64,000 nucleotides of DNA from assembly GCF_900473965.1 (NCBI RefSeq), contig NZ_UCNJ01000032.1:124001-188000 (forward strand). The letters are read 5' to 3'. Origin of the DNA: Synechococcus sp. UW179A. GTDB lineage: Bacteria > Cyanobacteriota > Cyanobacteriia > PCC-6307 > Cyanobiaceae. The notes beneath the pieces were generated by a model, which searched no databases, had not been told where the DNA came from, and saw only the letters and a list, made by a program, of their open reading frames with translations. This document shows, in pieces, positions 1,855-32,395 of this stretch. Both the position numbers and the translations under genes were made by a program. Numbering within the stretch: the first letter of the stretch is position 1; every line of letters starts with the position of its first letter.

Positions 1855-2079
1855 ATGGCTGCGATTGATGATCTGATGGCTGCTCTTATTAGCCATGTTG
1901 AATTACAGCAGGCTATGACAAACGCCACATCTCTAGAAGATGCTGTTGAGGTTGCTGTTGATGCGGGATACAAAGTAACTTCACAGGAGTTGCTAGAAGC
2001 CTACACATCAAAAACGGTTGAACTATCTGAAGAAGAATTATTATCAGTCGCTGGAGGGAAAGGACGCACTGTAGGCTGA
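1855..2079 (+). CDS. Nif11-type precursor-like protein with 6-residue tail
   Basis: 74 residues. The N-terminus (MAAIDDLMAALISH) is diverged from the usual MSEEQLKAF, but the middle (LEDAVEVAVDAGYKVTSQEL) and the end (ELSEEELLSVAGG) are typical of the Nif11/N11P leader. The tail after GG is only KGRTVG, with one Thr and no Cys, so lanthionine formation cannot occur in it. A degenerate TTGCTGTAGT lies upstream near 1822. It may be a decayed precursor or a leader-only protein. Confidence 0.75.
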   Translation: MAAIDDLMAALISHVELQQAMTNATSLEDAVEVAVDAGYKVTSQELLEAYTSKTVELSEEELLSVAGGKGRTVG

Positions 2080-2142
2080 TCGGCGGATACAAATGGCAGG
2101 ACCGTTGGTTGCTAAAATCAGGCTGTTGCAAGACTTACTCTG

Positions 2143-2397
2143 ATGTCAGAAGAGCAACTCAAAGCCTTTCTAGAAAAAGCCAAAGGCGACAGCAACCTTC
2201 AGGAGAAGCTAGAGGTAGCTGCTGATGCAGATGCAGTTCTTTCAATTGCAACAGAAGCAGGATTTAGCATTTCTGCTGATGATTTGAAGAACGCTCAATC
2301 AGAGATTTCAGATGATGAGCTGGAAAGCGCTGCTGGTGGTGGGCATTCTGGCAGCCCGTGCCACTCTGTATACACCCAATGTCCCGATGGATGCTAG
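2143..2397 (+). CDS. Prochlorosin-type lanthipeptide precursor (Nif11 leader)
   Basis: 84 residues. Leader MSEEQLKAFLEKAKGDSNLQ, then EISDDELESAAGG, the double-glycine cleavage site for a peptidase-containing ABC exporter. The core begins GHSGSPCHSVYTQCPDGC: three Cys with several Ser and Thr, the composition a class II synthetase (LanM/ProcM) turns into thioether rings. No synthetase or exporter is in the window, as expected if it is modified in trans by a distant enzyme. Followed by tail repeat D. Confidence 0.9.
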   Translation: MSEEQLKAFLEKAKGDSNLQEKLEVAADADAVLSIATEAGFSISADDLKNAQSEISDDELESAAGGGHSGSPCHSVYTQCPDGC

Positions 2398-2521: not shown

Positions 2522-2656
2522 TCTGGGACATTCACCAGAAGCTCACCAAAACCTCGTGGGGTATCCACCAAAACTATGCAGTGGTGTTCACCAGAAGGGC
2601 TGTGATCTTGAAGGAGTCGAGGGGGCAGCACGCCCATAAATTCACTCCTTAGAGGC
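2522..2656 (+). promoter_or_regulatory. Leader A, copy 1 (upstream of Nif11 2657)
   Basis: Contains CACCAGAAG, CACCAAAAC and CACCAGAAGG boxes, then CTGTGATCTTGAAGGAGTC. The end can fold into two nested helices: outer AAGGAGT with ACTCCTT (7 bp), inner GGGC with GCCC. The outer 3' strand ends 6 nt before the ATG. Other copies lie before 5273, 18593, 29918 and 32096. Confidence 0.7.
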
Positions 2657-2986
2657 ATGACACAAGAACAACTCACAGCTTTCATCGCTAACGCCAAAAG
2701 CAATACAAGCCTTCAGGAGCAGCTCAAAGCCGCAGCTGATGTTGATACGGTTATGGCGATTACCAAAGAAGCAGGATTCAGCATCTTCTGTGATGACCTC
2801 GCCAAAGCGCAATCTGAGATTTCAGACGAAGAACTGGAAGGCGTGGTTGGAGGAACTCACGTTCCGAACACTGGGATTGAGTGTCGTTCCACATGGTTCT
2901 GTATGAGCCTTAGAGTCAACACTACTGTTAACTGCTGTCCTGGAGGATCTACTAAAGGAAAGATAGTTTGGCCCTGTAACAAGTAG
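2657..2986 (+). CDS. Nif11-leader precursor with long five-Cys core
   Basis: 109 residues. Leader MTQEQLTAFIANAKSNTSLQ, SEISDEELEGVVGG, then a core of about 43 residues that is much longer than most prochlorosin cores. It has five Cys (IEC, WFC, NCC, WPC) spread among Ser and Thr and a PGGSTKGK stretch. A lanthipeptide with several rings is likely. The start is fixed by leader A, whose hairpin ends 6 nt upstream. Downstream is tail repeat D. Confidence 0.88.
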   Translation: MTQEQLTAFIANAKSNTSLQEQLKAAADVDTVMAITKEAGFSIFCDDLAKAQSEISDEELEGVVGGTHVPNTGIECRSTWFCMSLRVNTTVNCCPGGSTKGKIVWPCNK

Positions 2987-3013
2987 GCTACTCATCAAAA
3001 CTTCTCCCGCCGT

Positions 3014-3095
3014 AGGGGATTTTTATTTCTTCAATAGTCTAACTAATCCCATAAATAAATCTTCAATACCTGGCACAATTGAGCAGATTTGAGCA
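3014..3095 (+). repeat. Tail repeat D, copy 3
   Basis: GGGGATTTTTATTTCTTCAA, then ACTAATCCCATAAAT and CTGGCACAATTGAGCAG. Third copy of the block that follows precursors here. Confidence 0.7.
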
Positions 3096-3142
3096 TTAAT
3101 CAGGCAAATGAAAGCGTTTCCAAAAGGTGGAGTCAGGCCTCT

Positions 3143-3316
3143 GAGCCATTAACCAGAAGCTCACCAGAACCTTGCGAGTTCTGTACCAGAGCTGTAAAAT
3201 CTCAGCTACATTTAGGGAAGCTTCTGGCGAATAGCAGAATCAATCCACCACCTAGGCGGGCAACGCTTCCACCCACCTGACTTCTGCTGGGTTTCCCAGG
3301 ATTCGATAGCGACGCA
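3143..3316 (+). repeat. Decayed leader A plus dispersed repeat R
   Basis: 3143-3210 matches the first half of leader A (GAGCCATTAACCAGAAGCTC, ACCAGAACCTTG, ACCAGAGCTGT), but the hairpin half is gone and no gene follows. 3248-3316 is repeat R (AGGCGGGCAACGCTTCCAC, CACCTGACTTCTGCTGG, GTTTCCCAGG). Related copies of R occur near 12415, 19735 and 20405. Confidence 0.55.
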
Positions 3317-3324
3317 AACCCAAC

Positions 3325-3705
3325 TTAATTACAAACGAAAAATTGTGCATTGGGGGTTCGCTCTATATCGAGGTAATGCCCACTCTGCGTATAGGTTTTT
3401 CTAGCCGTATTAAACACAAAGAAGTTCATGAGATTATGCGAAGTCGCCGCAACATACGCAAAGATATATTCATTCTTTTGGCCAATAATGTTTACTTTCT
3501 GGTTGACATCAAAGCTTCTTCCGCTGGCAGGATTGAATGATGAAACGTGATAGACAGATGCTGTGGGCAACGACTTTACGCGCCAAACAGTCGTGAAGTT
3601 GCCATTAGATTCATTAACGCAGGTCCATTCCTGACTCCAAGAGGGAGAGGCAGAAATAATTAATGACATAGCACTCGCCAATGCAACCCAAAGTGACCTC
3701 ATCAT
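3325..3705 (-). CDS. Secreted hypothetical protein
   Basis: 126 residues with a clear Sec signal peptide (MMRSLWVALASAMSLIISAS, cleavage near SWSQ). The mature part has two Cys, one near its start (WTCVNE) and one at the end (FFVCN), which may form a disulfide. The rest is rich in aromatic residues and beta-like. Family not recognised. Confidence 0.75.
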   Translation of the reverse strand: MMRSLWVALASAMSLIISASPSWSQEWTCVNESNGNFTTVWRVKSLPTASVYHVSSFNPASGRSFDVNQKVNIIGQKNEYIFAYVAATSHNLMNFFVFNTARKTYTQSGHYLDIERTPNAQFFVCN

Positions 3706-5090: not shown

Positions 5091-5272
5091 TCGGCGTCAC
5101 CGACTTCCGCGTGAGCTAAGTCCAGTCAGGCAATGGGTTCTGAGCCATTCACCAGACGCGCACCAGAAACTAACGGGGTCTACACCAGAGCTGTGTAGTG
5201 GGCTCCACCAGAAGAGCTGTGATCTTGGAGGAGTCCAGGGGGTTACACCCCAACAATTCATTCCTTAGAACC
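5091..5272 (+). promoter_or_regulatory. Leader A, copy 2 (upstream of Nif11 5273)
   Basis: Starts CCCTGGAGCCTCGGCGTCAC, as at 16283 and 29685, then GAGCCATTCACCAGACGCGC and two further CACCAGA boxes. Hairpin: inner GGGGT/ACCCC, outer AGGAGT/ATTCCT (one G-T pair), ending 7 nt before ATG if the final unpaired T is counted. The leader can be read through in frame into the precursor, but leader homology places the start at 5273. Confidence 0.7.
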
Positions 5273-16190: not shown

Positions 16191-16236
16191 AATCGGTCGA
16201 TGGTTCGAATCCATGAGAGGGCGTCTAGTTACAGCG
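16191..16236 (+). other. tRNA T-arm-like relic, copy 2
   Basis: ATCGGTCGATGGTTCGAATC with CATG behind it: a near-perfect T-loop (TTCGAAT) with a GATGG/CCAT stem, then AGAGGGCGTCTAGTTACAGC as at 6551. The preceding bases do not form an intact anticodon arm or acceptor. It is followed about 45 nt later by CTTAAACACC and a decayed leader A, the same order as at 29575. Confidence 0.45.
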
Positions 16237-16282: not shown

Positions 16283-16410
16283 AGTGCCCTGGAGCCTTGG
16301 CCTCGCCAGCTTCTGCATGAGCTGATTTCCGCCTGGACGACCAATCTGAGCCATTCACCAGAAGCTCATCAGACATCCTTGGGGCTGCACCAGTGCTGGG
16401 AAGTGGAGAT
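16283..16410 (+). repeat. Leader A, decayed copy without gene
   Basis: CCCTGGAGCCTTGGCCTCGC, then GCATGAGCTGATTTCC, GAGCCATTCACCAGAAGCTC and a CACCAG box. The terminal hairpin is absent and no start codon follows. Confidence 0.55.
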
Positions 16411-16647
16411 CTCCCAAGCAGCAATTGCAGAATTAGACCCAGCACAGACAACCACCGTCGCCGAACACATAGGCTTAAGTAGAAGTGAAATTCTGGAGTG
16501 TGGCTACTGGAACCATCTCCCAGACAACAAGACGTCCCATAAGGACAATGCTTCTGCACGTGCGAAGCCTGCAGTCAATCAGGGTGTAGTCGCTGCGATG
16601 CATTAGGTGGAGCTGTAAAGACAAAAAAACTTTGGCCCGTTCTGGGG

Positions 16648-18425: not shown

Positions 18426-18473
18426 TTGAGGATGAACTAGAGCCAGCCTTGAAGAAAATTCTGAGCTATTGAT

Positions 18474-18592
18474 CAGACATGCACCAAAACTCTGCACTCT
18501 CCATACAGAGCTGTTTTGCAGGGTTCCCCAAAAAGGCTGTGAACTTGAAGGAGTCAAAGAGCTCGCAAGCTCAACATTCACTCCCAGAAACC
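18474..18592 (+). promoter_or_regulatory. Leader A, copy 3 (upstream of 18593)
   Basis: CACCAAAAC and GGGTTCCCCAAAAAG boxes, then GTGAACTTGAAGGAGTC. Inner stem GAGCT-CGCA-AGCTC replaces the GGGG/CCCC seen elsewhere, and the outer GGAGT/ACTCC is kept. The 7-nt outer-arm site ends 6 nt before the ATG. The changed yet paired inner stem supports a real RNA structure. Confidence 0.7.
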
Positions 18593-18889
18593 ATGGGGAC
18601 TACCGTTAAAGTCAGAGTAACTGCTTACCCATGGGAAAAGTGGGACAAGCTGCCGAAAGAAGAGAGAAAAGCGGAAACGATAGAGGGAGATCATCGAGCC
18701 GTTGAAGAGCAACGGCAAGAAGATACAGTCAAGGAGGGGGTCACCCCATCGGCTTTCCAGATTAAGCTAATACCCACGCAAGCGCAGAAGCTGAAGCCGT
18801 TGGGGTTAATGAGACCTATCGGACAACTTTTAACCCAGCTAGTGGCGGCCAAATGGTTTGCAAACACTTCAACTTTGAGTAGTTACTGA
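18593..18889 (+). CDS. Hypothetical protein under leader A (98 aa)
   Basis: MGTTVKVRVTAYPWEKWDKL, a charged Glu/Lys-rich middle (KEERKAETIEGDHRAVEEQR), then AFQIKLIPTQAQKLKPLG and a weakly hydrophobic end. No signal or membrane helix. The start follows from leader A spacing; the frame is open upstream to 18479, through the leader. Function unknown. Confidence 0.55.
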   Translation: MGTTVKVRVTAYPWEKWDKLPKEERKAETIEGDHRAVEEQRQEDTVKEGVTPSAFQIKLIPTQAQKLKPLGLMRPIGQLLTQLVAAKWFANTSTLSSY

Positions 18890-29574: not shown

Positions 29575-29630
29575 TGTTGTCTATTCCGTAGGTCGATGGT
29601 TTGAATCCATCAAGGGGGGTTGCTGTAGCA
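29575..29630 (+). other. tRNA T-arm-like relic, copy 3
   Basis: CTATTCCGTAGGTCGATGGT then TTGAATCCATC: reads as the 3' strand of an anticodon stem, a variable loop and a complete T-arm (GATGG/CCATC). The 5' half of a tRNA is not present (a run of nine G instead). About 40 nt further comes CTTAAACACC and leader A, as at 16191. Confidence 0.45.
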
Positions 29631-29684: not shown

Positions 29685-29860
29685 GGAGCCTTGGCGCCGC
29701 CAGCTTGCGTATGAGCTGATTCCTACCTGGAAGTGGTATCTGATCGATTCACCAAAAGCTCACCAAAGCTTCTTGAGCTCATCACCAGAGCTATGTAGCT
29801 GGGTTCACCAGTAGGGCTGCGAGCTTGAAGGAGTCGAGGGGGCAATACCCCACGAACCGC
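29685..29860 (+). promoter_or_regulatory. Leader A, copy 4
   Basis: CCCTGGAGCCTTGGCGCCGC, GTATGAGCTGATTCC, several CACCA(A/G)A boxes, then GAGCTTGAAGGAGTCGAGGG. Inner stem GGGG/CCCC is kept, but the outer ACTCC arm is lost, and the next gene starts about 58 nt further on. A partly decayed copy. Confidence 0.55.
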
Positions 29861-29917: not shown

Positions 29918-30169
29918 ATGTCTCACACCTCTCTAAAAGCGCTTTGCTGTTCGCTAGTCATCACATCACTGCATGGGATTCAAGCGTCTGCCCTAACGAA
30001 TCAACAGCTTTTGAAGCAACGTCTGATCACCCCAGCCGTCTATGTGCTGCTTCATAGTCGTGAAGCAAACACACCAATCAAGCGATGGGAGGTGATACAG
30101 GAGGCCTGTGGATCAGGTCGGCTCTCTCCAAGTGAATGCGGAACCTCGAGAAAGCGGAGGGAGTATTGA
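29918..30169 (+). CDS. Small secreted hypothetical protein (83 aa)
   Basis: MSHTSLKALCCSLVITSLHG is a signal peptide (cleavage near IQASA). The mature part is LTNQQLLKQRLITPAVYVLL, then a basic stretch with two Cys (EACGSG, SECGTS). Ends just before a terminator. Not recognised. Confidence 0.65.
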   Translation: MSHTSLKALCCSLVITSLHGIQASALTNQQLLKQRLITPAVYVLLHSREANTPIKRWEVIQEACGSGRLSPSECGTSRKRREY

Positions 30170-31934: not shown

Positions 31935-32095
31935 GAGCTGATCTGAAGCTGGGCACGGTATCTGAGACATTCACCAGAAGCGCACCAGAACCTCTTGAGG
32001 TAGGCACCAGAGCTCTTTAGCAGGGTTCACCAGAAGTGCTGTGATCTTGAAGGAGTCAAGGGGACAAACACCCCATCATTCACACCTTTAAAGCC
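31935..32095 (+). promoter_or_regulatory. Leader A, copy 5 (upstream of 32096)
   Basis: GCATGAGCTGATC, GAGACATTCACCAGAAGCGC, CACCAGAACC, GCACCAGAGC and TTCACCAGAAG: four CACCAGA boxes. Hairpin: inner GGGG/CCCC, outer AAGGAGT with ACACCTT (one mismatch), ending 7 nt before ATG. Confidence 0.7.
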
Positions 32096-32395
32096 ATGAC
32101 TACTTTCAACAACACATACAAATCAACCAAAGCGATTCTTTGCGCCGGGTTGATTGGAGCCACAACTTGTGCACTGGCACCTGCAGCAGAAGCCAGAGGC
32201 TACGAGTATCAGAGACGGCATGAGCTGAGGCAACTCCGCAGAGAAATTCGTCGTGAGACTCGTGACTACCGACGTGCGCGGAGAGAATATCGCCGCGAAG
32301 TCAATCGTTATCCACGTATCATTCCAGCCTATGGATTCGGTCGAGGGTATGTTTATGGGCAACCTGCAGGCTTTGGGATTCAATTGCGTTTCTGA
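32096..32395 (+). CDS. Secreted arginine/tyrosine-rich protein (99 aa)
   Basis: Signal peptide (AILCAGLIGATTCALAPAAE, cleavage near AEARG), then a mature part dominated by Arg: RRHELRQLRREIRRETRDYR and RRARREYRREVNRYPR. It ends in aromatic/Gly-rich sequence (GFGRGYVYGQPAGFGIQLRF). Strongly cationic; may bind nucleic acid, polysaccharide or membranes outside the cell. Under leader A and ended by a terminator. Confidence 0.75.
   Translation: MTTFNNTYKSTKAILCAGLIGATTCALAPAAEARGYEYQRRHELRQLRREIRRETRDYRRARREYRREVNRYPRIIPAYGFGRGYVYGQPAGFGIQLRF

Follow-up and report, generated by a model that had tools for sequence, protein, structure and literature searches.

This locus raised the question of what kind of element stands, copy after copy, before otherwise unrelated small genes in a 64,000-nucleotide stretch of DNA, hereafter the window (G000 C32:124001-188000, in a genome of 3.06 Mb; window position equals contig position minus 124000). 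An earlier note had read the element as an RNA leader with a covarying double hairpin that controls translation and that is copied with, or recruited by, accessory genes. The computed architecture, register, gene content, co-occurrence and adjacency of a regulator, boxes at a kinase gene and hairpin conservation point elsewhere: we consider it likely that the element is a portable cassette of operator, promoter and 5′ stem-loop belonging to one two-component regulon.

The five full and two decayed copies listed in the earlier note were all recovered as profile matches (Table 1). With copy E as BLAST query, 29 places at E<0.01 were found in the host's own genome, and a sequence-only profile built from 25 own-genome copies gave 30 matches there at E<=0.01; these numbers exclude chance as the source of the repeat. 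Within the window, CACCAGAAG with at most one mismatch occurred 40 times, against 17.9 (sd 4.05) in shuffles. Relatives of the host yielded more than 100 further copies, nearly always preceding a short gene. By kinship labels the host is no LLIV Prochlorococcus; they place it in the genus of Synechococcus WH7803 (G010). Among the matches listed, 15 genomes among 60 relatives, all of this genus, had profile matches at E<=0.01 (G017 37, G000 30, G011 26, G019 21, G012 14, G016 12, G008 8, G002 6, G021 4, G025 4, G010 3, G023 3, and one each in G003, G013 and G026, those of G013 and G026 being marginal and partial). The exact pattern was carried by Synechococcus WH7803, UW140 and UW105, two single-cell genomes, and Prochlorococcus MIT0701 (G082), which belongs to another genus of the same family than the host.

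Table 1. Copies of the element, their parts and the genes that follow them (window positions)
Feature	Position	Strand	Remarks
Copy A, full	2530-2636	+	profile match G000:C32:126530-126636
Copy A, four CACCAGA-type boxes	2533..2595; starts 2533, 2544, 2566, 2589	+	offsets 0, 11, 33, 56
Copy A, extended -10-like TGTGATCTT	2601..2609	+	putative promoter; start point expected at ~2615
Copy A, inner hairpin GGGC/GCCC	2623..2635	+	
Nif11-type RiPP precursor, 109 aa	2657..2986	+	PF07862; TIGR03798 63.8 bits (cut-off 32.3)
Decayed copy, boxes only	3148..3196	+	model positions 2-50, E 1.1e-8
Copy B (Leader A locus of the earlier note), full	5147-5252	+	profile match G000:C32:129147-129252
Copy B, four CACCAGA boxes	5150..5212; starts 5150, 5161, 5183, 5206	+	
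Copy B, extended -10-like TGTGATCTT	5218..5226	+	putative
Copy B, inner hairpin GGGG/CCCC	5238..5251	+	
Nif11-type RiPP precursor, 80 aa	5273..5515	+	PF07862; TIGR03798 63.6 bits (cut-off 32.3)
Decayed copy, boxes only	16353..16414	+	model positions 2-64, E 2.4e-7
Copy C, full	18468-18567	+	profile match
Copy C, degraded box array	18470..18532	+	1-nt deletion; boxes 1 and 3 eroded
Copy C, -10-like TGTGAACTT	18538..18546	+	putative
Copy C, inner hairpin GAGCT/AGCTC	18559..18572	+	compensatory variant
98-aa protein, PWEKW..LP motif	18593..18889	+	no family match
Copy D, full	29747-29851	+	profile match
Copy D, four boxes	29750..29812; starts 29750, 29761, 29783, 29806	+	
Copy D, -10-like TGCGAGCTT	29818..29826	+	putative
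Copy D, inner hairpin	29834..29855	+	
83-aa protein, N-terminal hydrophobic stretch	29918..30169	+	ALTNQQLL family (own grouping)
Copy E, full	31969-32074	+	profile match
Copy E, four CACCAGA boxes	31972..32034; starts 31972, 31983, 32005, 32028	+	
Copy E, extended -10-like TGTGATCTT	32040..32048	+	putative
Copy E, inner hairpin GGGG/CCCC	32060..32074	+	
99-aa protein, signal-peptide-like start	32096..32395	+	LRREIRR family (own grouping)

Both copy D and the decayed copy at 16353 have, some 130-160 nt ahead of their boxes, a remnant resembling the 3′ part of a tRNA (GGTTCGAATCC-like; window positions 29590-29620 and 16194-16220, respectively); ARAGORN recognises no tRNA in either. The portion of PMC2784084 available to us describes a pseudo-tRNA-Met near nif11 genes in MIT9313.

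Copies were aligned on the anchor CTTGAAGGAGTC; 3 of 144 rows without the anchor were dropped and two anchors were reset by hand, leaving 139 usable copies and, after a redundancy filter, 111. Relative to the anchor the CACCAGA boxes start at -74, -63, -41 and -18, with spacings of 11, 22 and 23, and at least five of the seven box letters were present at these positions in 88, 91, 93 and 99% of the 111 copies, against a background of 0.6%. All four boxes stood in exact register (0, 11, 33, 56) in 87% of the 111 non-redundant copies. One register was kept across copies from about -85 (TCTGAGC) to about +17, with few single-base gaps within it in the alignment of 25 own-genome copies. The boxes are followed by a near-invariant TTCACCAGAAGGGCTGTGATCTTGAAGGAGTCGAGGGG, then by the inner hairpin and a spacer of variable length to the ATG. 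Direct repeats at 10-11 bp, by which OmpR-family operators are recognised, were found; three loci in G021 carry six contiguous 11-bp box units, and copies in other genera retain both the register of the boxes and a hairpin. A reading of the CACCAGA boxes as DNA is preferable to one as RNA, and they appear to behave as an operator phased at 11 bp.

Two arrays depart from this form. A six-box array without the anchor, at L221 (G021:C1:661500-668500, 2610-3550, minus strand), adjoins the regulator gene described below and stands before the gene of a 266-aa protein that carries RTX-like GGSGND repeats. A further diverged array at L032 (near G011:C1:803963), also without the usual anchor, has boxes at 0 and 11 and GACCAG at 33 and 44.

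Immediately downstream of the last box, the extended -10-like TGTGATCTT may form a promoter; it is conserved across the 111 copies and is matched in phase by four kinase promoters (see below). It is weak: its hexamer begins with G and is not AT-rich, and no -35 is visible near it; the promoter is therefore probably activator-dependent. A conserved promoter upstream of box 1 was rejected on the AT profile from -160 to -88, in which the highest six-column mean was 0.56; single columns upstream of box 1 reached 81% AT, and the proposed -10 itself only 0.62.

Since 7-bp boxes in 11-bp phase are reminiscent of OmpR-family operators, the genus was searched for PF00486, and one regulator of this family was found beside copies of the element in several genomes. 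It has 230 aa (G000:C2:260220-260909 in the host), with a PF00072 receiver domain (101.7 bits, cut-off 30.2) and a C-terminal PF00486 winged helix (94.9 bits, cut-off 26.2); its nearest PDB sequences are PrrA, MtrA and PhoP, and with 216 bits it stays below the TIGR02154 cut-off of 296.2 for PhoB. Seven regulator loci were read at 5.5-8 kb. By eye, a sensor kinase and a binding protein were seen beside the regulator in G000, G011, G017, G016, G002 and G025, and a kinase without a binding protein in G021. The binding protein was confirmed as PF12974 for two orthologs (G011 and G000), and the kinase as HisKA plus HATPase in the one tested (G002), in which HAMP was below cut-off. The distance from element to regulator was 285-293 bp in G000, G011, G016 and G017, 0.4 kb in G212, 1.1 kb in G021 and 3.0 kb in G002; an element thus lies within 3.1 kb of the regulator in seven genomes, the adjacency in four of them being one orthologous arrangement.

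The kinase gene carries boxes of its own. In G000, G017, G011, G016, G077 and G148 two to three tandem boxes, with neither anchor nor leader nor hairpin, precede the WSIARRF codons of the kinase by 114-118 nt; these six promoters fall into related pairs. In five of these genomes the kinase frame is closed upstream of the start, short of the array; that of G000 runs on through the array, with a GTG 17 nt ahead of the array, and the boxes would be coding if that GTG were the start. When every fetched locus was scanned (1841 strand-kb in all), three CACC in series at 11 bp turned up away from anchors at four of these kinase promoters and in the G021 arrays alone, and strict CACCARA pairs nowhere but at kinase genes, in those arrays and in two diverged copies. 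The start of the last kinase box is followed after 25-26 nt by TATCTT (G000, G017) or GATAAT (G011, G016); in the element the distance from box 4 to GATCTT is 15 nt, shorter by about one 11-bp unit. It is because of these -10-like sites that TGTGATCTT is tentatively taken as an extended -10. G077 and G148 have no visible site of this kind at the corresponding distance; their arrays score 17-19 on the four-box score, against 15-20 in shuffles, and stand out only as tandem triples. At the remaining regulator loci that were read, which in part may fall short of the kinase start, no box array was seen. The double-box pattern had 28 matches in the own genome and its reversed control 2; the 28 comprise 21 elements, the site at the kinase gene and six more. 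All of these six lie in open frames of more than 100 codons (four of more than 300), and the kinase-gene site also lies within an open frame, that of the kinase.

The regulator and the element occur together. Regulator orthologs of at least 69% identity were present in 11 of 31 genus genomes among the matches listed, the other matches listed, apart from the G014 remnant described below, being paralogs 37-44% identical. Among genus genomes at least 90% complete, and taking a profile match at E<=0.001 as element-positive, the regulator was found in 8 of 9 positive and 0 of 15 negative genomes (matches listed; Fisher 1.2e-5). Across the family, a full-length ortholog (E<=1e-70) was present in 17 of 400 genomes and the conserved anchor pattern, among the matches listed, in 18 of 400; they overlapped in 12 genomes against 0.77 expected (hypergeometric 4e-15, a statistic that ignores kinship and takes both counts as the same 400-genome draw). 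Six genomes had the anchor only, of which three look like chance and WH7803, G023 and G170 stand. Matches in G151, G158 and G202 were judged to be chance, as was, by eye, one in G238. Five genomes had the regulator only; four of them (G021, G077, G183 and G345) carry diverged elements found by the profile, three copies in G183 preceding double-glycine peptides, and G015, which is 63% complete, has no profile match. All six regulator-positive genomes outside the genus had profile matches (best E 4.3e-32 to 0.002); by E-value the best match of the regulator-negative G013 (0.0016, partial) is as good as that of G183 (0.002). Elements without a regulator ortholog were found in WH7803, with three elements (among the matches listed), and in G023, G003 and G170, which are 74-80% complete. 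A 2.4-Mb genome from the genus of MIT0701, G123, has neither the anchor nor the regulator among the matches listed.

A regulator remnant was observed in G014, a genome without elements: a 107-aa frame at L235 (G014:C1:350000-355000; 1935-2258, plus strand), 67% identical over residues 86-229 and with one in-frame TAA. It suggests a joint loss of regulator and elements.

Within the operator reading, a minority share goes to two variants, which we regard as unlikely: that the regulator represses, or that the boxes are read by a different paralog of OmpR type. Occlusion would be possible, since box 4 directly adjoins the -10-like site; the weak -10 without a visible -35 suggests activation. A paralog could be at work because every genus genome has OmpR-type regulators among the matches listed and because WH7803 keeps elements without the ortholog; against this, the paralogs are present in genomes with and without the element.

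More doubtful is the reading of the earlier note, in which the whole of about 140 nt would be transcribed, a double hairpin would hide AAGGAG by the start codon and so control translation, and CACCAGA would be an RNA signal. It is supported by the inner hairpin, with a mean of -8.1 kcal/mol in 126 copies, against -3.6 in shuffles, and 69% of copies among the best 5% of their own shuffles (a set that includes at least one mis-anchored row). The inner stems described earlier are present up to register, GAGCT/AGCTC of copy C included, and GGAGGC/GCCTCC and GGGAA/TTCCC are further compensatory variants. Swapping 3′ halves weakened the hairpin from -7.5 to -6.8 in 87 segments, hand-chosen from 131 distinct ones by leaving aside two mis-anchored rows and others that were mostly canonical, and from -6.0 to -4.4 for 25 non-canonical 5′ arms. 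Native hairpins beat 90% of the chimeras in only 15 of 87 cases overall and 5 of 25 non-canonical ones, and for this reason covariation of the inner stem is held to be present but modest. The inner hairpin is thus genuine and modestly covarying.

The outer stem fared differently. Pairing of the AAGGAGTC arm with the segment before the ATG was stronger on average than in shuffles (-6.6 against -4.7 kcal/mol, in 106 of the 111 copies), except in two gene families, Sec3 (4 copies) and GG3 (3 copies). Among the 22 copies whose outer 5′ arm differs from AAGGAGTC, the real arm paired over a longer stretch than the consensus arm in 3, a shorter one in 11 and an equal one in 8. AAGGAGT is missing from the copies of G345, G077 and G183, where the arm is replaced by TGTGAATGTC, GCAGGTGTCC and GAATACATC, respectively, and where the boxes, and possibly a hairpin, are retained in modified form. 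An outer stem as a general feature was rejected on these uncompensated variants and on the replacement of the arm in other genera. That pairing is kept while sequence changes, as claimed earlier, therefore holds for the inner stem and not for the outer one, and a covarying double hairpin is not supported.

Nor do the boxes look like part of a folded RNA. RNAalifold of the 25 own-genome copies gave -2.74 kcal/mol with a covariation term of 0.03 and 11 pairs, none in columns 1-63 (boxes 1-3) and one, in the inner stem, with a compensatory change; a consensus RNA fold of the whole leader was rejected for want of pairs over boxes 1-3. The fold z-scores of the five window copies were 0.17, -0.49, 0.41, -0.62 and -1.57, so that none, or at most one that comes near, folds better than 95% of its own shuffles; for copy D, folded as a 101-nt stretch, 17 of 200 shuffles were as good. 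An Rfam scan of the 64 kb gave two matches below gathering score (E 0.012 and 0.85), neither at a leader, and a known Rfam family was accordingly discarded as the identity of the leader. Boxes that stand at kinase genes without a leader, the 11-bp phasing and the co-occurrence with an OmpR-family regulator are likewise unexpected for RNA. Speaking for the RNA reading, G148 has AAGGAG 7 nt before an ATG, which must be transcribed if it acts as a ribosome site. Taken together, a whole-leader RNA seems improbable; what stands of the translational-control proposal is a conserved cis-element with a hairpin in the presumed 5′ UTR.

Two copies are of note as to the ribosome site. At L194/L305 (G148:C19:289-374) an anchor-like GGCTGTGATTTTCAAGGAGTCGAG stands immediately ahead of the ATG of a signal-peptide-like protein; the boxes there are eroded and a hairpin is lacking. 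This could be a derived copy using AAGGAG as its ribosome site, which would favour transcription through it. The second copy at L176 (G212:C7) is a diverged element whose gene has its own AAAAGGAGG ribosome site 6 nt before the ATG, unlike the window copies.

The genes that follow are varied. The earlier note had named two Nif11 precursors and three unrelated proteins in the window, which agrees with our searches: two proteins exceeded the PF07862 and TIGR03798 cut-offs, and the other three had no Pfam or NCBIfam match at E<=0.01. The 141 anchored copies precede Nif11-type genes (22), four other double-glycine groups (53), five signal-peptide-like groups (29), PWEKW proteins (5) and others (24, some of more than 300 aa), and 8 have no reachable open frame of 25 codons; family labels are our own regular expressions and amount to about a dozen gene groups. 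Seven representative peptides of the genus and three of other genera had no Pfam or NCBIfam match above cut-off, four showing weak bacteriocin-type matches; one double-glycine representative scored 21.5/24 and 17.8/32 bits against the CCRG-2 and CTB families, below cut-off. From their leader and signal-like sequences, the peptides are probably exported. The C39 exporter was rejected as a tracking partner: the 21 of 31 genus genomes that have it include both carriers and non-carriers of the element, and it is missing from the element-positive G021. PWEKW..LP..ER-type proteins of 98-259 aa were seen after several elements (window 18593-18889; L020; L087).

Among 109 leaders kept (the label "other" was left out), the nearest leader neighbour was in the same gene family in 54, against 15.5 in shuffles, in the same genome in 47, against 18.5, and on another gene family in 55. 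The cassette is thus partly inherited with its gene and partly exchanged, and the earlier "copied with, or recruited by, accessory genes" stands to the extent that the element turns up repeatedly ahead of different small genes, from which it is in part uncoupled. That transposition or recombination has spread it chiefly as a unit of duplication, with no regulatory role, is suggested by some 30 copies in the own genome, decayed copies, these neighbours in other families and the tRNA-like remnants near two copies, yet is hardly credible for an element that in 133 of 141 anchored copies is followed within 140 nt by the start of a same-strand open frame of 25 codons or more (a lenient criterion), keeps box register and hairpin in other genera, tracks a regulator and, in one scan, is missing as an exact pattern from viral contigs. 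Carriage by phage was rejected on that same scan.

For the portable operator-promoter cassette, the following mechanism is proposed. A periplasmic signal, for which the PF12974 phosphonate-type periplasmic binding protein would be the candidate receptor, would act through the kinase on the response regulator. We infer that this OmpR/PhoB-family protein binds the 7-bp CACCAGA boxes in 11-bp phase and activates rather than represses, so that dozens of small peptide genes would be switched together: RiPP precursors, double-glycine peptides, signal-peptide-like proteins and, in several genomes, the kinase gene itself. Transcripts would begin about 8-10 nt after the anchor start; the hairpin would therefore cap the 5′ end of the mRNA, which it may protect, most simply as a stabiliser. 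With less confidence than in the cassette itself, we lean towards the view that one system of binding protein, kinase and regulator controls the entire arsenal of exported peptides in several picocyanobacteria by way of this one cassette, and that new genes join by acquiring it. If true, the Nif11-type and other double-glycine peptides of these strains would have their control system here, and one sensor-regulator pair would give the arsenal a single control knob.

No earlier description of the element was found in the open-access literature searched, and this is apparently an undescribed two-component regulon of small peptides. One promoter cassette is reused over about a dozen gene groups by our own grouping, and its DNA motif finds small candidate exported peptides outside Nif11. 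With prochlorosin and Nif11-type RiPP systems the element shares two window genes and the 22 of 141 anchored copies that precede Nif11-type genes; it differs in that signal-peptide-like proteins and at least four double-glycine groups other than Nif11 are served as well. In the parts of PMC10783134 available to us, LuxR or response-regulator genes are reported in some prochlorosin clusters, the biological function of prochlorosins is called unknown and regulation is discussed only as a possibility; nif11 genes of MIT9313 respond to nitrogen stress according to the available portion of PMC2784084, and the corresponding parts of these two papers and of PMC2887384 contain no promoter or leader of this kind. 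With a named candidate regulator, kinase and operator, the question of prochlorosin regulation becomes testable.

The closest likeness is to the Pho box of PhoB and other OmpR-family operators, which have 7-bp boxes with 4-bp spacers in an 11-bp direct repeat and, in the Pho-box type, adjoin a -10 without a clear -35. The element likewise has 7-bp boxes, 4-bp spacers and 11-bp direct repeats beside a -10 without a clear -35, and the candidate regulator likewise combines receiver and winged-helix domains. It differs in the box itself (CACCAGA), in having four to six boxes at 11/22/23 spacing, in a regulator below the TIGR02154 cut-off, and in targets that are peptides and not phosphate genes. 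In plantaricin-type bacteriocin regulons, one two-component system also acts on a direct-repeat operator repeated at many peptide genes, as proposed here for the candidate system; those regulators are of LytTR type and respond to an induction peptide, whereas here the regulator is OmpR-type and a phosphonate-type binding protein lies beside the kinase. Pairs of a binding protein and a sensor kinase are known from AioX-AioS-AioR-like systems, which resemble the PF12974-type protein beside the kinase here but use another class of regulator than the OmpR type. Operators of this type are therefore already known; it is the scale, the portability and the link to a peptide arsenal that are new.
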